Program-made: the position numbers and the translations under genes
Notes under the pieces: generated by a model
Seen by the model: the letters and a program-made list of their open reading frames with translations, nothing else
Told to the model about the DNA's origin: nothing
The model's database searches: none
From: Roseiflexus sp. RS-1
GTDB lineage: Bacteria > Chloroflexota > Chloroflexia > Chloroflexales > Roseiflexaceae
Assembly: GCF_000016665.1 (NCBI RefSeq)
Contig: NC_009523.1
Location: 5,641,501-5,705,500 of the forward strand
Reading direction: 5' to 3'
Length of the DNA: 64,000 bases
Shown here: positions 6,220 through 33,384 of the stretch, one piece after another
Layout: each line of letters begins with the position of its first letter
Numbering within the stretch: position 1 is the stretch's first letter

Positions 6220-7155
6220 TGCGTTCCTCCTTAAACGAACGTATCCGCCAGACCGGTGTTCCTGTTTGTGCTGTGAAAACGGAGAAGCAGTCCAAGAGGT
6301 TGGAAAAAAGTATAGCAGGTTGGGCAAAACCTGTGCATGTCCATAAGTCGAGATCACGCCTCACCAATGTACCAGGCCATCCCCGCCGTTCGACGGGTTT
6401 GTGGCGCGCTTCACGTGAGGATTATCACGAGAACTGCAAACCGGAGGAGAGAGGACCAGAGGAACAGGAAATGAGACGCAGACCAGGTATCGGTGCGTCC
6501 GACACCAGGGCGCCGTGCTAAGCACGACGTCCAGTGCAGGAACCCGGATGATGGCGTGCGAGCGCCCTTAAACCTGTGGCAATTCAATTCAGGTCGGACA
6601 TACTGAGAATTATAGCAGTTCTCAGATACGTTGACCCGTGCCTGGATTTCTACAGCGAAGTGCAAAACAGTTGACCTTCGGAATTGCGCGCTTCATACGG
6701 TCATGCGGGCGAGACGCCCGCGCACCCGGCACGCACGTGGCTCAATCATTTTGCATTTCGCTATAGAGCGTTCCATCGTCGTGCGCCTCAGCTGGCTGAA
6801 GCCCTGGCTGAGGTCGGGCAAGCCCTGCGGGCTGGATCAACCCGACGCCCCCGGCACGGGGAAAGGTGAAGGACACGCCAGCCCCGCAGGGGCTTCCACG
6901 CGCTCAGGGAGGGCTTTAGCCCGCACGAGCGAATCACGCCCGACGATGGGGCGCATGTCTTCTCTCCGACCGCCACGCAAGGCGGTCGCCGCATTGGGAA
7001 CGCGCGCATGACTGCGCTTGTCCGAGGAGGTTCAACCTCTATGAGAACCGCTATAATCCGGTATGCGCCGCGTGCCGTCGGGCTGAAGCCCTCGGCTATG
7101 CGAGGCGAAGCCCGCCTGCGCGGGCTACGGCGGAATAATTACTCAAAGACCATAC
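6220..7155. other. Gene-free stretch with dispersed repeat fragments
   Basis: No supported gene. It holds two pieces of a repeat marked by TTATAGCAGTTCTCA followed by TTGA (plus strand near 6611; minus strand near 7028-7057), REP-like inverted repeats around 6780-6930 (GGCTGAAGCCCTGGCTGAGG and similar), and a full copy of the 115-bp repeat at 7055-7154. Short frames here look like translated repeats. Confidence 0.6.
7055..7154 (+). repeat. Dispersed intergenic repeat, copy 2
   Basis: It shares AATCCGGTATGCGCC, GGCTGAAGCCCTCGGCTATG, AGCCCGCCTGCGCGGGCT and ATTACTCAAAGACCATA with the copies at 3531, 21904 and 33265. It ends at the stop codon of the membrane protein gene on the opposite strand. 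Confidence 0.75.
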
Positions 7156-9986: not shown

Positions 9987-10380
9987 TACCAGATATCAAA
10001 TCACAATCGAACAGGATGTAGCCTGGGGGCGCAGGCGTCCCGCCCGCACGCTTGTCTGGGGGCGCGGGCGTCCCGCCCGCACAGCCCCTGGGTACGCACT
10101 CTCAAGGGTCGATTTCTTGAAAGAGATGCGTGATTTTCTGCATTCCGGTGCGCTTTTGCCCCTCACCCCCCTGCTCGCAAGGGTAGAGTTTTTGGGAGAG
10201 ATGAGCAACGTTCTGCATTCCCGTACGCCTTTGCCCCTCATCCCCCCGACCCCCTTCTCCCACAAGGGGTTGAAAGGGGGGGGATTCGCAGGCAGATTGT
10301 CAACCGTTTCCGTTCCACCGAACGCACGGGCCGATCCGTCGGTATCATGATCATGGAAGGATCGCGAGACACGGAGGATG
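9987..10380. repeat. Gene-free stretch of REP-like repeats
   Basis: Near 10021-10085 a palindromic unit GCGTCCCGCCCGCAC occurs twice. It is followed by two diverged copies of a block containing GAGATG, TTCTGCATTCC and CCCCTCA (around 10115-10160 and 10185-10235) and a C-rich/G-rich hairpin (CCCCCTTCTCCC...AAGGGG). No coding region is supported. Confidence 0.6.
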
Positions 10381-11697: not shown

Positions 11698-12480
11698 ATC
11701 CCCCCCCTTTCAACCCACACGGGGAGAAGGGGGAGGTTGGGCGTCCTGACGGCTGAAATGGGAGATGGCGCGCAGGGGCTTGCCAAAAAACCCACCCTTG
11801 TAAGCTGGGGGGCGCAGGCATCTCCCCCACCAGCACGCCTGGGTGCGCGGGCGTCCCGCCCGCACGCAGCCCTGCGCCCCTTCACGGGGACGCAGGCATC
11901 TCCCCCACCAGCACGCCTGGGTGCGCGGGCGTCCCGCCCGCACGCAGCCCTGCGCCCCTTCACGGGGACGCAGGCATCTCCCCCGCACGCAGCCCTGGGT
12001 GCGCGGGCGTCTCGCCCGCACGCAGCCCTGCGCCCCTTCACGGGGACGCAGGCATCTCCCCCGCACGCAGCCCTGGGTGCGCGGGCGTCCCGCCCGCACG
12101 CAGCCCTGCGCCCCTTCACGGGGACGCAGGCATCTCCCCCGCACGCGGCCCTGGGTGCACAGGCGTCTCGCACAGTCGCAGATGTACGCACGACTTGCTC
12201 AAGCACAGCCCCTGGGTGCGCGGGCGTCCCGCCCGCACGCAGCCCTGCGCCCCTTCACGGGGACGCAGGCATCTCCCCCGCACGCAGCCCTGGGTGCGCG
12301 GGCGTCCCGCCCGCACGCAGCCCTGCGCCCCTTCACGGGGACGCAGGCATCTCCCCCGCACGCAGCACCGCCCCATCACGAATGCGCAAGCGTCTCGCCC
12401 GCACAGCCCCTGGGTGCGCGGGCGTCCCGCCCGCACGCAGCCCTGCGCCCCTTCACGGGGGCGCGAGCATCACGTCCTCG
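11698..12480 (+). repeat. 78-bp tandem repeat array
   Basis: The phrase GGGTGCGCGGGCGTC recurs at 11841, 11919, 11997, 12075 and 12153, exactly 78 bp apart. It recurs again at 12214, 12292 and 12412 after two irregular spacers. Each unit carries the palindromic GCGGGCGTCCCGCCCGC and CTGCGCCCCTTCACGGGG. Two unit types differ in the joint (CCCACCAGCAC or CCCGCACGCAG). Because 78 is a multiple of 3, frames stay open on both strands, but the predicted peptides are only repeat translations. The stretch 11698-12561 has no supported gene. Confidence 0.88.
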
Positions 12481-12561
12481 ACCGCCCCGTGAGGATGTCA
12501 CCCCTCGCTCCATGGCAAACAGCGCAGATCGGGAACAAGCACCATCGTACGGCGCATATGG

Positions 12562-16955: not shown

Positions 16956-17281
16956 GGGCGAAAGCCATTATAGCAGTTCTCATGGAGGTTGAACCAATTG
17001 GACAGGGTTGAACGCTCCCAGAATCGCGCTCCCGACACGGTGACCGAAATGAATTTCGGTCTACGCTTTGCCGAAAACGGAGCGTCTCGCGTGACACGGC
17101 AGACCTGGACGACGATCAATGAATCTGAAGAACTGCTGTAAATCAATCATGACTTCGCTGCAAAAACGCACCGCAGCGACGCCGAGGGCGCAGAGAACCC
17201 TGAAAACGAACCATGATGGATGCATGGCGGAGCATGCGAGTGCGTGATGCGCACGAGAATCTTCCTCTGCGAACGCTGCGT
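16956..17281. other. Intergenic repeats upstream of IS110 copy A
   Basis: No gene. It holds TTATAGCAGTTCTCATGGAG followed by TTGAAC elements (16973-17035) and the palindrome CCGAAATGAATTTCGG (about 17044). A very similar succession precedes the second IS110 copy at 22100-22200. At 17151-17201 (minus strand) lies an intact copy of the sequence into which IS110 copy B inserted. Confidence 0.65.
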
Positions 17282-17289
17282 CTAGTATA

Positions 17290-17430
17290 ATCTAACGGGA
17301 CACGGTATACCGTTCTGCGCCAGGTTCACGAGATCGCCGCGGAGTGTTGGGTAGCCGTGTCCTTCAACGCGACCAAGCCGAACAGTTATCTGGGCCCTCA
17401 AACCCGCATATGCTAGCAAGGCTGGCGCCG
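17290..17430 (+). ncRNA. Predicted IS110 bridge (seek) RNA, copy A
   Basis: Two stem-loops lie in the leader. The first is closed by GGACACGG (17298-17305) and CCGTGTCC (17355-17362). Inside it TTCTGCGCC resembles the left target, and CCGCGGAG (17337-17344) pairs with the right target CTCTGCGG with one G-T wobble. The second is closed by CCAAGCC (about 17373-17379) and GGCTGG (about 17420-17425). Inside it ACAGTTATCT (17382-17391) matches the element's right end ACAGTTACT, and TATGCTAG (17409-17416) pairs with the left end CTAGTATA with one G-T wobble. Pairings were found by eye; expression is not shown. Confidence 0.65.
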
Positions 17431-17452
17431 TTTTCCTCAGGAGGTTCTGTGT

Positions 17453-18415
17453 ATGGCTTCCCGTGAGTCGCTCTTTATCGGCATTGATGTCTCCAAACAG
17501 ACGCTGGATGTGGCGTTTGGCGCCGACCCGCACGCGCCACGCGAGACGATACCGTCTACCGACGAAGGTGTCCAGCTCCTGGTCACGCGACTCCAGCGCC
17601 TGCAGCCGACCCTGATTGTGCTGGAGGCGACCGGCGGGCTGGAGCGCATGGTGTTCGCCCAACTGCTCCAGGCTGGCGTGCCGACGGCGCGGGTGCAGCC
17701 ACGCCGCGTGCGCGCCCTGGCGCACGCGGAAGGACGCCAGGCGAAGACCGACCGCCTGGATGCCCGGTTGCTCGCCCGCTTTGCCGAACGGGTGCGCCCG
17801 CCGCACCACCAAGCGACGGACGAGCAGCGCGCATCCTTGCGCGACCTGCTGGTCCGGCGGGAGCAGTTGATTCAGATGCGGACGGCTGAGATCAATCGGT
17901 TGACGGCTGCCGCGCCGAACCTCCGCCCGGGCATCCAGCAGCATATTGATTGGCTGGATCAGGAGATCCGTGCGCTTGAGCAGGAACGCGACAACGAGGC
18001 GGAGCGCACCGACGAGGTGCGCCGGAAACGGGAGCTGCGCGACAGCGTGCCCGGCATCGGCGCGATCACCGCACTGAACCTGCTGCTCCGCCTGCCCGAA
18101 CTGGGGACCATCAAGCGCACGGAAGCGGCGGCCGTTGTGGGCGTTGCGCCGTATGCCAATCAGAGCGGCGCACAGCACAAACCCCGGCATATCTCCGGCG
18201 GCAGGAGGGATGTGCGCAGCGTGTTGTACATGGCGACCCTGGCGGCCACGCGGCGCCGTCTGGTCAGGCGCGCCTTCTATCAGCGCCTGTGTCAAGCTGG
18301 CAAGCCGCGCAAGGTCGCCATCGTCGCTGCGATGCGCAAGCTGCTGACTATTCTCGGCGCAATATTGCGTCAGCAAAAGCCCTGGGATCCGGCTGTGCAT
18401 ACGAGCGCCCCTTGA
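17453..18415 (+). CDS. IS110-family DEDD recombinase, copy A
   Basis: The protein has 320 residues. The N-terminal RuvC-like domain has the four acidic residues of DEDD transposases: IGIDVSKQTLDVA, VLEATGGLE and KTDRLDARLLARFAER. The C-terminal Transposase_20 domain has DSVPGIGAITALNLLLRLPE, GVAPYANQSGAQ (likely nucleophilic Ser in QSG) and ISGGRRDVRSVLYMATLAA, then FYQRL and KVAIVAAMRKLLTIL. The start follows AGGAGG. The sequence keeps consensus residues at the three positions where copy B differs, so this copy is the better candidate for activity. Confidence 0.94.
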   Translation: MASRESLFIGIDVSKQTLDVAFGADPHAPRETIPSTDEGVQLLVTRLQRLQPTLIVLEATGGLERMVFAQLLQAGVPTARVQPRRVRALAHAEGRQAKTDRLDARLLARFAERVRPPHHQATDEQRASLRDLLVRREQLIQMRTAEINRLTAAAPNLRPGIQQHIDWLDQEIRALEQERDNEAERTDEVRRKRELRDSVPGIGAITALNLLLRLPELGTIKRTEAAAVVGVAPYANQSGAQHKPRHISGGRRDVRSVLYMATLAATRRRLVRRAFYQRLCQAGKPRKVAIVAAMRKLLTILGAILRQQKPWDPAVHTSAP

Positions 18416-18544
18416 CAAGCAACACAGTTACTCTGCGGTGAAATACCTTTTGCAGCGTTCTCAATCATACATATACCATCAAGGGCGAAACAGCAATGGA
18501 AATCCCCGTCTACCGAAGTACATGCTGGATTATGTTCTGGTTGA

Positions 18545-21685: not shown

Positions 21686-22345
21686 GCATCGGGAAGCAGA
21701 AACCCAGAGCGTGATCGAAAACCTGCACAGGTGGAGTCATAACGGCGTCCGTTCCATCGTTCCAGGGTAACCGCCCGACCGGTACCGCTCTTAAAGAGGA
21801 CGTAATGAAACACGTTGCACGCTTCCGCTGGCGCCGGAGGCGTGCTGGCTGATGAGTGAAGTTGAACACTCCCGGAATCGCGCATCCCTCGCGGCGACCG
21901 AAATGAGATTGAGCGCTTAATCCGGTATGCGCCGCAAGCCGTCGGGCTAAAGCCCTCGGCTATCCGCAGCAAAGCCCGCCTGCGTGGGCTATGGCGTTCG
22001 CACCGCTTAGAGCGACAGGCGGCGTGACTGAACCACGCGCGTCCTGGGTGCGCGGGCGTCCCCGCCCGCATGCCGTCGGGCTGATGAAGATTGAGCATTT
22101 ATAGCAGTTCTCACAGCGATTGAACCCAACGGACAAGGTTGAACACTCCCGGAGTCATGCCCACCACGCAGCGCCCGAAATTCATTTCGGTCTACGAGAG
22201 AAGTACGCCGAAATGTATTTCGGCACATTGCAGTTCTCCCAGAAGGGAGAACGCCCCGCAGGAAGCGAGCGTCGCGCGCTGCGGCACGTACAGACAAGCG
22301 TCAATGCGTCCGCGAATGCGTAATACCCCTTGCCCCTCCGCGTTA
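21686..22345. other. Gene-free repeat cluster before IS110 copy B
   Basis: No supported gene. It contains a partial copy of the 115-bp dispersed repeat (21904-21996), a REP-like unit GCGCGGGCGTCCCCGCCCGC near 22050, TTATAGCAGTTCTCA with TTGAACCC (22100-22130), and two CCGAAAT-type palindromes (CCGAAATTCATTTCGG and CCGAAATGTATTTCGG) near 22178-22225. Confidence 0.6.
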
Positions 22346-22353
22346 CTAGTATA

Positions 22354-22494
22354 ATCTAACGGGACACGGTATACCGTTCTGCGCCAGGTTCACGAGATCG
22401 CCGCGGAGTGTTGGGTAGCCGTGTCCTTCAACGCGACCAAGCCGAACAGTTATCTGGGCCCTCAAACCCGCATATGCTAGCAAGGCTGGCGCCG
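22354..22494 (+). ncRNA. Predicted IS110 bridge (seek) RNA, copy B
   Basis: Same sequence as in copy A: closing stem GGACACGG (22362) with CCGTGTCC (22419), target-like segments TTCTGCGCC and CCGCGGAG, then donor-like segments ACAGTTATCT and TATGCTAG in a second stem-loop. The pairing with this copy's own right target (CTCGGCG) is weaker than for copy A. Confidence 0.6.
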
Positions 22495-22516
22495 TTTTCC
22501 TCAGGAGGTTCTGTGT

Positions 22517-23479
22517 ATGGCTTCCCGTGAGTCGCTCTTTATCGGCATTGATGTCTCCAAACAGACGCTGGATGTGGCGTTTGGCGCCGACCCGCACGCG
22601 CCACGCGAGACGATACCGTCTACCGACGAAGGTGTCCAGCTCCTGGTCACGCGACTCCAGCGCCTGCAGCCGACCCTGATTGTGCTGGAGGCGACCGGCG
22701 GGCTGGAGCGCATGGTGTTCGCCCAACTGCTCCAGGCTGGCGTGCCGACGGCGCGGGTGCAGCCACGCCGCGTGCGCGCCCTGGCGCACGCGGAAGGACG
22801 CCAGGCGAAGACCGACCGCCTGGATGCCCGGTTGCTCGCCCGCTTTGCCGAACGGGTGCGCCCGCCGCACCACCAAGCGACGGACGAGCAGCGCGCATCC
22901 TTGCGCGACCTGCTGGTCCGGCGGGAGCAGTTGATTCAGATGCGGACGGCTGAGATCAATCGGTTGACGGCTGCCGCGCCGAACCTCCGCCCGGGCATCC
23001 AGCAGCATATTGATTGGCTGGATCAGGAGATCCGTGCGCTTGAGCAGGAACGCGACAACGAGGCGGAGCGCACCGACGAGGTGCGCCGGAAACGGGAGCT
23101 GCGCGACAGCGTGCCCGGCATCGGCGCGATCACCGCACTGAACCTGCTGCTCCGCCTGCCCGAACTGGGGACCATCAATCGCACGGAAGCGGCGGCCGTT
23201 GTGGGCGTTGCGCCGTATGCCAATCAGAGCGGCGCACAGCACAAACCCCGGCATATCTCCGGCGGCAGGAGGGATGGGCGCAGCGTGTTGTACATGGCGA
23301 CCCTGGCGGCCACGCGGCGCCGTCTGGTCAGGCGCGCCTTCGATCAGCGCCTGTGTCAAGCTGGCAAGCCGCGCAAGGTCGCCATCGTCGCTGCGATGCG
23401 CAAGCTGCTGACTATTCTCGGCGCAATATTGCGTCAGCAAAAGCCCTGGGATCCGGCTGTGCATACGAGCGCCCCTTGA
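22517..23479 (+). CDS. IS110-family DEDD recombinase, copy B
   Basis: 320 residues with the same DEDD and QSG motifs as copy A. It differs by K to N (TINRTEA), V to G (RRDGRSVLY) and Y to D (RAFDQRL). The last two hit positions that are usually conserved in the family (VR before LYM; FYQRL), so this copy may be impaired. Confidence 0.93.
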   Translation: MASRESLFIGIDVSKQTLDVAFGADPHAPRETIPSTDEGVQLLVTRLQRLQPTLIVLEATGGLERMVFAQLLQAGVPTARVQPRRVRALAHAEGRQAKTDRLDARLLARFAERVRPPHHQATDEQRASLRDLLVRREQLIQMRTAEINRLTAAAPNLRPGIQQHIDWLDQEIRALEQERDNEAERTDEVRRKRELRDSVPGIGAITALNLLLRLPELGTINRTEAAAVVGVAPYANQSGAQHKPRHISGGRRDGRSVLYMATLAATRRRLVRRAFDQRLCQAGKPRKVAIVAAMRKLLTILGAILRQQKPWDPAVHTSAP

Positions 23480-23572
23480 CAAGCAACACAGTTACTCGGC
23501 GTCTCGGCGGTGCGTTTTTGCAGCGAAGTCACTATTGCAAAACCCACACAGACGGGAAAAGCAGGACGCTCA

Positions 23573-27060: not shown

Positions 27061-27528
27061 TATCAAATCTTGATCGATAGGTGCATTCTCGCCAGATCGC
27101 CATTCGTCGTTCTGGAATGTTCCTGGCACGCTGGAACGGTTCGAGGACGCACACGTGCCAGGGTGCGCGGGCGTCTCGCCCGCACCCAGCGATGCGACTG
27201 AATTCTCCGTCAGTCTCTCCATGTCGCCCCTTAAGGTGCGCCAGCGTCTCGCCCGCATGCGGCGATGCGCCCCATCACGGTAGCGCAGGCATCACGCCAT
27301 CGACCGCCCCGCGCGGGCAGAACACCTGCGCTCCATAGCAACCGGCGTGGAAGGTGAATAAACACCAGTAGACGGTGCATATCCCAGGTTTGTGTCAGTT
27401 GTTTTTGGTGGTTACATTCCAGCCAGCCTGTGCAGCCCAAAAACCGCCCTCGGAGAATCCAACAATCTTCCGCTTGACAGCGTGTGGTATGCTGGCACAC
27501 GACAGATTGGAAAGGGGATATTCCAGAG
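27061..27528. other. Gene-free stretch with REP-like units
   Basis: It holds GCGCGGGCGTCTCGCCCGCA near 27160 and a related unit near 27240-27320 that matches the irregular part of the 78-bp array (GCCCCATCACG, GCGCAGGCATCACG). A TTGACA at 27474 has no well-placed -10, so I do not call a promoter. Confidence 0.55.
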
Positions 27529-30610: not shown

Positions 30611-31621
30611 ATGGCACAAATCCTCCTGATCTTCATCACGGCGCTGCTGTTTTCCGCCCTGGCGACGCCTGTAGCGCGGCGAGTGGCGCTCCGCACCGGC
30701 GTGGTCGATGCGCCTGCCGCGCGTAAACTGCAACTCGTGCCGGTGCCATTGCTCGGTGGTGCGGCAATCTATAGTGCGTTCGTGGTTGCACTCATCCTGT
30801 TCGGCGATCGGGCGTATGTGCGCGAACTGATCGGCATTCTGCTCGGCGCAACACTGGTATCACTCTTCGGGCTGGCAGACGACCGCTGGGGACTGAACGC
30901 TTACCTGAAACTGGGCGGGCAGGCGCTGGCAGGCGCCATTCTGATCCTCGGCGGCACCCAGGTGCGCCTCTTTCCACAAGAATGGATGAACTGGGCAATG
31001 ACTCTCATCTGGGTAGTTGGTATCACGAATGCGCTCAATCTCCTCGACAATATGGATGGTCTCTCAGCCGGAGTGACGACCGTTGCAGCGGCGTATTTCC
31101 TGCTGCTGGCTGCTATGAGCGGGCAGTACCTGGTAGGCGCGATGGCTGCCGCCCTGATCGGCGCGTGCGTCGGCTTCCTGCGCTACAATCTCAATCCGGC
31201 CACCATTTTCATGGGCGACGCAGGATCGCTCTTTCTGGGTTTTCTGCTGGCTGCGCTGGCAATCAAACTACGCTTCCCGTCGAATGTCCCGTGGATCACC
31301 TGGCTGGTGCCGGTCTGTGTGCTGGCAGTGCCGATTTTTGACACCTCGCTCGTCTTTGTCTCCCGTCTGCGGCGGGGGAAGAACCCATTGACCACCCCTG
31401 GCAAGGATCATGTTTCGCACCGCCTGACCGCACTTGGTCTGACACGACGCGAAGCGGTGTTGATCTGCTACCTGCTGGGATGCGCAGCAGGTATGGTGGC
31501 GGTCTATATCTCGCAGGCGCGCGCGCTGGATGCGTATGTCGCCGCAGCGATGCTTGGTATGGCGATGGTTGCAGGAATCATCTGGTTCGAACAACGCACA
31601 GAATGGCGTGATCCTCGCTAA
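30611..31621 (+). CDS. Polyprenyl-phosphate sugar-1-phosphate transferase (WecA/MraY family)
   Basis: About 336 residues with ten or so membrane helices. Motifs: the DD pair in [49 protein letters not shown] and the cytoplasmic HHR-like loop [13 protein letters not shown]. The missing MraY-specific insert favours the WecA/TagO branch, which loads GlcNAc-1-P (or similar) on undecaprenyl phosphate to start cell-surface glycan synthesis. The ATG at 30611 has AGGTGA upstream. The stop codon lies at the border of an 80-bp MITE-like element. With the LCP protein and glycosyltransferase at 23.7-26.4 kb it fits a wall-glycan theme. Confidence 0.9.
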
Positions 31622-31700
31622 GAGCCTATTCGAATAACCCGGCGGCACGCACGGCAATCACGCCGCAGGCGAAAAGGTTACAGTTTTGCGGATAGGCTCT
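31621..31700 (+). repeat. 80-bp MITE-like element, copy 1
   Basis: The ends AGAGCCTATTCG and CGGATAGGCTCT form near-perfect 12-bp terminal inverted repeats (one mismatch). The interior, starting AATAACCCGGCGGCACGC, is identical to copy 2. Its first base is the last base of the WecA-like gene's TAA stop. Confidence 0.8.
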
Positions 31701-31880
31701 TGGCACACCGGGTCACATGACTGTTTCGAGTGTCGGAACGACGAACCTGGTGCGACAGGGTGGTTCCGCTCGCCGCCTGGCGACTGAAGTCGCGGCTGGC
31801 AGGCGGGAAGCCCGCCTGCGCGGGCGTGAGGGGGCGCATCCCGCTCGCCTGTAGACCAGTCCGTCGGACTTCCACGTCTT
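31701..31880. other. Spacer between the two 80-bp elements
   Basis: 180 bp with a REP-like palindrome (AAGCCCGCCTGCGCGGGC near 31808) and GACTGAAGTCGCGGCT. No gene is seen. Together with its flanking elements it forms a composite-like unit. Confidence 0.5.
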
Positions 31881-31960
31881 AGAGCCTATCCGAATAACCC
31901 GGCGGCACGCACGGCAATCACGCCGCAGGCGAAAAGGTTACAGTTTTTCGGATAGGATCT
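31881..31960 (+). repeat. 80-bp MITE-like element, copy 2
   Basis: Same orientation as copy 1, ends AGAGCCTATCCG and CGGATAGGATCT. It differs from copy 1 at about three positions. It lies 20 bp before the next gene and may carry or disrupt its promoter. Confidence 0.8.
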
Positions 31961-31980
31961 AAGCACGAGGATATACAGAT

Positions 31981-33264: not shown

Positions 33265-33384
33265 TGATGGAGATTGAGAAATACATCCGGTATGCGCCCT
33301 TGCCGTGGGGCTGAAGCCCTCGGCTATGGAATGCAAAGCCCGCCTGCGCGGGCTATGGCGGATTATTTACTCAAAGACCATAAT
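33265..33384 (+). repeat. Dispersed intergenic repeat, copy 3
   Basis: It has the same order of motifs as at 3531-3646: GATGGAGATTGAGAA, TCCGGTATGCGCC, GGCTGAAGCCCTCGGCTATG, AGCCCGCCTGCGCGGGCT and GATTATTTACTCAAAGACCA. It lies about 30 bp before the VOC gene. Confidence 0.75.

Follow-up and report, generated by a model that had tools for sequence, protein, structure and literature searches.

RNA-guided systems of the bridge-RNA kind have been known since 2024. In Roseiflexus sp. RS-1, which belongs to a lineage known for hot-spring bacteria, a 64,000-nt stretch of the chromosome (the window, analysed here at its full length) contains two copies of an IS110-type insertion sequence that may be heat-stable and whose recombinase gene is preceded by a long noncoding leader. 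An initial annotation of this DNA had read the leader as a complete bridge RNA, with target and donor guides carried by two stem-loops. All of the strings that it quoted were found at their positions, and the leaders of the two copies are identical. The question raised by this locus is whether the leader specifies an RNA that guides the recombinase and, if so, to which sites. It was addressed by comparing the copies of the element with one another, with their insertion sites and with homologous elements from other Chloroflexota.

An IS110-type element present in 40 copies

Copy A occupies positions 17282..18432 of the forward strand and is 1151 bp long, from a core CT at 17282-17283 to a second core CT at 18431-18432. 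These bounds were defined by the 40 copies of the same length in the genome, whose flanks diverge beyond them. Copy B (22346..23496, forward strand) is the same element and differs from copy A by three nucleotides only, all inside the gene (K221N, V254G and Y276D), the first 300 nt being 100% alike. The genome is a single contig of 5,801,598 bases. Searching the whole of it with each end, allowing up to three mismatches, returned 40 left ends and 40 right ends, with none for the reversed control; all 40 copies are exactly 1151 bp long, have intact ends and lie at 40 different sites. A PF02371 search of the genome (E 0.001, all 81 candidates scored) gave 40 domains and therefore no IS110-type gene beyond the 40 copies. 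Plasmid records yielded short or weak matches only, none spanning 80% of the element.

The gene (17453..18415, forward strand), which is preceded by an AGGAGG ribosome-binding site at 17439..17444 of the same strand, encodes a 320-residue recombinase. PF01548 (3.7e-25) and PF02371 (1.6e-14) both score above their cut-offs, giving a DEDD RuvC-like domain and a Tnp domain with the catalytic serine. The closest solved chains by sequence are the ISCro4 recombinase (9t56, E 6.2e-44), compared here by its protein, and IS621 (E 5.6e-41). In an alignment read by eye, D12, E58, D100, D103 and S238 stand opposite D11, E60, D102, D105 and S241 of IS621, as its catalytic residues are named in the excerpts of PMC11208158. 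The open reading frame is intact, and the five catalytic residues (DEDD and S) are kept, in 40 of the 40 copies. There are 171 noncoding nt at the left end and 17 nt at the right end, and the predicted RNA region lies in the longer left end, as in the IS110 group. Assignment to the IS1111 group was rejected, since a long noncoding region downstream of the gene would be expected there and here only 17 nt separate the stop codon from the right end, the long noncoding region being upstream.

Two of the insertions have unusual junctions. At genome positions 2815343-2817658 (L002) there is a tandem pair of copies with 6 bp between cores, the second insertion having used a target adjoining the first. 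The copy at 5748461-5749611 (L017) has AT as its left core and CT as its right core. The excerpts of PMC11208158 report recombination with AT cores as well, and a top-strand cut that falls behind the core. With such a cut the core on the left would be that of the target, so that the AT of L017 possibly comes from its target, the alternative being a later mutation.

Other repeats were observed in the window. The Rfam CRISPR-DR28 matches at 7104-7127, 21968-21991 and 33332-33355 each correspond to one isolated member of the 86-nt dispersed repeat D8, which, judged from the repeat table, does not look like a CRISPR array. A tandem array of GC-rich units of about 78 bp lies at 11760-12488, with relatives near 10020 and at 27123-27310. 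Two 89-nt copies, 93% alike and 260 nt apart (31618-31706 and 31878-31966), are possibly a small mobile repeat.

Comparative evidence for a two-stem-loop RNA

A related-locus search in genome contigs gave one distant locus only (25% identical), so homologues were taken from a multi-genome search that covered a draw of 400 Chloroflexota genomes out of a larger group. A recombinase homologue at E 1e-30 or better was found in 39 of the 400, this genome included. The best one elsewhere is L103 of genome G072 (58-59% identical protein), and in the four same-genus genomes of the draw none of the five candidates scored in each, out of 14 to 21, reached E 1e-30. The 82 homologue loci examined, some of them the same place twice, provided 46 distinct leaders with a recognised left end, and 33 were aligned with the window leader; the remaining 13, set aside on visual inspection because they were long, distant or near-duplicates, are L108, L110, L130, L163, L175, L180, L184, L188, L189, L190, L191, L192 and L196. 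Left ends were located by pattern, the choice being named in the script for L108, L111, L113, L121, L163 and L166. The left flank of L121 repeats its own leader, as in a misassembly; this locus was excluded from the guide-target counts and from the blind model, and kept in the donor-guide and stem counts.

From the 33 homologous leaders and the window leader, RNAalifold predicted two stem-loops with internal loops, comprising 27 pairs, 17 of which have double changes; both stem-loops are common to the leaders of the Chloroflexota homologues, with compensatory changes. A count of the stems on the same alignment gave 94.9% paired cells, and 0 of 500 shuffles reached any of five measures. Structures slid along the alignment gave 34-52%, a control that leans toward the predicted structure because the latter was derived from the same alignment. 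A covariance model blind to the element, built from 32 leaders without the window element and L121, matched the window at 17294-17428 and 22358-22492 (E 3.4e-12), the next match being at 0.36, with E-values from a short, rough calibration. The two stem-loops of the initial annotation are thus borne out by compensatory change and by a model that finds both leaders unaided.

The predicted bridge RNA of copy A, placed by the alignment structure and the covariance model, would span 17298..17434 of the forward strand, from about 7 nt past the −10 box described below to the run of T that follows the last stem, with start and end predicted. That of copy B would correspond to the model match at 22358..22492, also on the forward strand. 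The folding energy of the single leader is ordinary (z −0.08; 90 of 200 shuffles fold equally well), no better than chance, so the structure rests on comparison and not on stability. At its gathering threshold Rfam has no match to the leader, and a permissive Rfam scan of 17200-18500 returned two weak matches only, both within the gene. The comparison strongly supports the leader as a bridge-RNA gene, the RNA itself being a prediction.

Target guides and the choice of insertion sites

The targets of the element are dispersed CTCYGCG-type repeats. Copy A is flanked by AACGCTGCGT on the left (17272..17281) and by CTGCGG on the right (18433..18438), both on the forward strand and delimited by the element bounds from the 40 copies. 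With the C of the core set as position 0, all 40 aligned sites share C at +2 and G at both +4 and +6, and +5 is C in 36 and T in 4. Sorting by the right flank assigns 13, 6, 6 and 5 sites to four repeat families and leaves 10 sites outside them. Within this genome there are 32 occurrences of the pattern TCYGCGYCTCYGCGK (control 1), some of which touch a copy; of 20 relatives, this genome among them, 13 contain it. G034 and G043, from a different family in the order, have 162 and 151 occurrences (control 0 in both), and the same-genus G330 has 15 (control 0). The other four same-genus genomes have 0 to 2 occurrences, the reversed control being commoner (5 to 15), and G012 has 3 against 83 for the control. 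None of the five candidates scored in each of G034, G043 and G330 is a homologue of the recombinase, which argues that the target repeat type is independent of the element.

About 85 bp to the left of copy A, at 17180-17197 of the minus strand, there is an apparently empty target, TTCTCTGCGCC-CT-CGGCG, with the flank type of copy B (inverted repeat I2). A search for an empty orthologous site in same-genus genomes found that the neighbouring genes align and the target point itself does not.

In the first stem-loop, the right target guide (RTG; CCGCGGAG, 17337..17344, forward strand) forms one G-U in its pairing with CTCTGCGG of copy A, and its terminal AG pairs with the core CT. The 7 nt at its end match 92% of positions across the 40 right targets (96% with wobble), which places them first among all leader 7-mers and offsets for pairing with the top strand; the top value on another alignment is 72%, and among the listed windows clear of the RTG the highest is 67%. 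The pairing with the right target of copy A, one wobble included, had been pointed out in the initial annotation, and the scan of the 40 sites confirms it.

The left target guide (LTG; TTCTGCGCC, 17313..17321, forward strand) pairs with the bottom strand of the left target, as the RTG does with the top strand of the right one. A fixed-offset scan in this genome alone gives no unique winner for it, because the targets are periodic, and its support comes from site choice and from the homologues. Of the 40 occupied sites, 35 have YGCG at a distance of 1 or 2 nt to the left of the core, versus 3 of 68 CTCNGCG sites elsewhere in the window outside both copies (Fisher p 1.6e-19, the repeats being non-independent draws and the background a single window). 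GCG is 1 nt before the core in 25 sites and 2 nt before it in 12; the sorting was done on GCG itself, whose agreement is there by construction. Outward of GCG, the bases match T, C and T of the LTG at 18, 21 and 9 of the 25 sites in the 1-nt register and at 12, 11 and 8 of the 12 in the 2-nt register. These matches suggest two working registers for the left guide. With strict pairing the element's own LTG is the best at the 40 sites (4.67); with wobble, the LTG of homologue L103 scores higher (5.60/6) than the own one (5.20/6).

These observations leave some room for a reading in which the RNA guides, yet only the RTG and the core set site choice, and the LTG match reflects the repeat family that hosts suitable right halves. 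The right half is indeed near-invariant over the 40 sites and the left half occurs in two registers. Against this stand the enrichment of the left motif at occupied sites, with the limits of its background given above, and the covariation of the LTG with the left target over 33 elements (see below), and we consider a role of the RTG alone improbable. The same two results uphold the likeness between the LTG and the left target flank that had first been seen in copy A.

Donor guides and the circle junction

In the second stem-loop, comparison with the element ends places the left donor guide (LDG) ACAGTTA at 17382..17388 and the right donor guide (RDG) TATGCTAG at 17409..17416, both on the forward strand. 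The LDG equals the right end at 7 of 7 positions, in the sequence ACAGTTA-CT formed by the left donor and the core (18424..18432, forward strand). This match had been described as a gapped 10-mer; the match is real, and the 7-nt ACAGTTA describes it better. The RDG pairs with the left end CTAGTATA (core CT and right donor, 17282..17289, forward strand) with one wobble, exactly as proposed earlier, and contains a CTAG tetramer that is complementary to the left end. Both donor guides can therefore pair with the joined element ends, as in the IS110 group. In three of the 40 copies (L002, L022 and L024), a T to G change at the LDG position equivalent to 17386 breaks a pair with the right end.

Joining the right and left ends brings together a −35 box, TTGACA, which overlaps the stop codon (18412..18417, forward strand), and a −10 box, TATAAT (17286..17291, forward strand), at a spacing of 17 nt. 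The resulting TTGACA-17-TATAAT has 12 of 12 consensus bases and arises only where the right end abuts the left end, so that a circle junction would create a strong promoter. Among the homologues with both ends, 22 of 33 score at least 9/12 for a junction promoter in a best-of-range search made without a chance control. A promoter of this kind is reconstituted at the junction of IS621, as described in the excerpts of PMC11208158.

Covariation of guides with targets and element ends

Guide-target scoring used two registers for the RTG and three for the LTG, for own and foreign targets alike. With strict pairing, the RTG agrees with its own target at 123 of 140 positions (28 elements including copy A; shuffle maximum 86) and the LTG at 159 of 198 (33 elements; shuffle maximum 122), totals that 0 of 20000 shuffles reach. 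When only distinct guides are counted, the strict totals are 94 for 21 RTGs (shuffle maximum 66) and 131 for 27 LTGs (shuffle maximum 101). The own target is then the best or joint best for 20 of 21 RTGs (19 of 21 with wobble) and for 20 of 27 LTGs (18 of 27 with wobble). For the donor guides, LDG agreement over 30 elements is 207 of 210 (best shuffle 197) and the RDG tetramer is present in 32 of 34 elements (best shuffle 30), again with 0 of 20000 shuffles reaching either value. The misfits, with wobble allowed, are the LTG of L111 (3/6), the RTG of L166 (3/5) and the LTGs of L104, L131, L162 and L179 (4/6 each); for the donor guides, L105, L112 and L167 have one LDG mismatch each and L183 is without the RDG tetramer. 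L170 has no tetramer in the columns tested, and a matching ATACTAG was seen by eye elsewhere in its leader. The target guides of the homologues change along with their own targets, and the donor guides follow the element ends.

The closest homologue provides a direct comparison. L103 also has a short leader, with 15 nt before the target-loop stem and no room for a 5′ stem-loop; its right donor end is the same, its left end nearly the same, and it too sits in a tandem repeat, of a style close to that of the targets here. It differs in its LTG (GTTTGTGTCC, one nt longer), its RTG (TCACGAAG) and its target (CCTTTGTGTC-CT-TTGTG). Inspected by eye, C-to-T and G-to-A changes relative to the element studied here affect both guides and the target, in step. 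From this one pair of elements we infer that L103 is a naturally retargeted relative on the same repeat style.

Covariation also bears on the idea of a conventional structured 5′ untranslated region, through which the leader would regulate the recombinase; target recognition would then fall to the protein alone, and the guide matches would be coincidence or a by-product of GC-rich repeats. The leader does sit directly ahead of the start codon, where a ribosome-binding site is present, its folding energy is unexceptional, and GC-rich periodic target repeats offer easy matches within one genome. However, the guides of the homologues follow their own target flanks beyond every shuffle and the donor guides track the element ends, which makes this idea very hard to maintain. 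An RNA encoded by the leader very probably directs the recombinase to genomic repeats. Co-variation of stems and guides among homologues, and a covariance model of their leaders, had been named in the initial annotation as checks of its proposal; both came out in its favour, the first in the doubly changed pairs and the guide counts above, the second in the recovery of both window leaders.

Variation among the copies

The 40 copies have 27 variable sites, of which 22 are G-T/A-C transversions (one being the core base of L017) and 5 are transitions, with no other kind. Between the window and the near relative G330, by comparison, there are 1923 transitions, 247 G-T/A-C changes and 179 others (p 2e-16 for the two spectra, core site omitted). 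By eye, the homologues often point to A/T as the ancestral allele, from which the direction was taken: A:T to C:G changes seem to dominate among the copies. Among the 191 chromosomal changes on the branch leading to the window (8359 sites), 6 are A:T to C:G. A second multicopy insertion sequence, with a PF01609 match (e.g. L238-L254), is near-identical in the 17 of 21 equal-scoring copies examined, with one variable site among the positions covered by at least 10 copies. Alleles are shuffled among the IS110 copies: 96 of 136 informative site pairs show all four combinations, with slight linkage below 60 bp.

The G-T/A-C excess looks like an 8-oxo-dGTP mutator mark, as in mutT mutants, or an assembly effect. 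Mutagenesis by IS110 transposition itself is disfavoured, the closest copy pairs in G106, G074 and G372 (1 to 18 differences) having mostly transitions. Codon differences from the consensus are 154 nonsynonymous versus 5 synonymous, with some radical replacements. Selection was dropped as the cause of this excess, since 91% of the possible A/T to C/G changes in the gene are nonsynonymous, against 19 of the 19 G-T/A-C coding sites seen.

A degenerate relic, multiplied through genome duplication or inter-repeat recombination and not by active guided insertion, is a scarcely credible reading of the element, for, although the variable protein and the shuffled alleles would suit such a history, reading frames, catalytic residues, length and ends are preserved in all 40 copies at as many different sites, and the result for the four same-genus genomes, within the candidates scored, fits recent arrival and expansion.

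Comparison with known IS110 elements

Bridge RNAs are predicted in 85.7% of IS110s according to the excerpts of PMC11208160, so an RNA in this element is expected rather than surprising. In the published group (PMC11208160, PMC11208158 and PMC11187229, as excerpted), the target loop precedes the donor loop, left guides address bottom strands and right guides address top strands. Loop order, guide order and strand sense are the same here, so the earlier assignment to the known arrangement stands. ISEc21 and other seekRNA IS110-type elements, likened here by their description in excerpts of PMC11187229, likewise have a noncoding region upstream of the gene and an RNA complementary to both target strands.

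IS621 of Escherichia coli (8wt6 and others) shares with the present element the DEDD and Tnp domains with five catalytic residues, the CT core, a long RNA-bearing left end with a short right end, the order LTG/RTG then LDG/RDG with equal strand sense, the circle-junction promoter, and genomic repeats as targets, these being REP elements for IS621 in the excerpts of PMC11208160. The guides, the target and the host, here a member of the Chloroflexota, are different. A further difference is the 5′ stem-loop of IS621, for which there is no room here, as only 16 nt precede the target-loop stem (17 in L170; median 45 in 34 leaders). This stem-loop is not treated as essential, since IS621 deprived of it bound the RNA more weakly and recombined slightly less (PMC11208158, excerpts). 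The predicted RNA, at about 135-140 nt (about 137), is shorter than the 177 nt given for IS621 in the same excerpts. As to the core dinucleotide, all four guide pairings of IS621 include it; here the AG of the RTG and the AG of the RDG pair with both core bases, the LTG pairs with the first at most, leaving the second unpaired in either register, and the LDG is followed by TC, not CT, and has no core match.

A literature search, with supplements and subscription journals outside its scope, found no paper combining IS110 and Roseiflexus, and among the matches listed no title was on a Chloroflexota bridge RNA. The element is clearly supported, by these sequence comparisons, as a compact and unusually short bridge-RNA member of the IS110 family, IS110 group.

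Proposed mechanism and significance

With near certainty, we hold that a two-loop bridge RNA encoded by the leader would guide the recombinase into CTCYGCG-type repeats, with transcription, RNA ends and protein binding as predictions and the reaction itself drawn by homology to IS621. The element would be excised as a circle, whose joined ends would form the TTGACA-17-TATAAT promoter and transcribe the leader and then the recombinase gene. In the first loop, LTG and RTG would pair with both strands of the target TCYGCG-N(1-2)-CT-CNGCG, and in the second, LDG and RDG would pair with the joined element ends. Recombinase dimers on both loops would then meet, cut beside the CT core and exchange strands, so that the element would enter the dispersed repeats.

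A broader proposal is offered tentatively, at somewhat less than even confidence. The element would then have a minimal bridge RNA of natural origin, with no 5′ stem-loop and with an LTG that accepts GCG one or two nt from the core, so that one guide pair may use imprecise tandem repeats in two phases; related elements may have tracked the same kind of repeat as base composition drifted, both guides changing in step.

Bridge RNAs are the basis of programmable DNA insertion, inversion and excision. The element described here offers 40 natural insertion sites for one guide pair, together with a predicted natural short RNA that is without a 5′ stem-loop, and its 59% identical relative, with guides that appear naturally retargeted, adds a comparison. 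Two questions are thereby made testable: which register slips of the left guide are tolerated, and whether natural bridge RNAs can do without the 5′ stem-loop.
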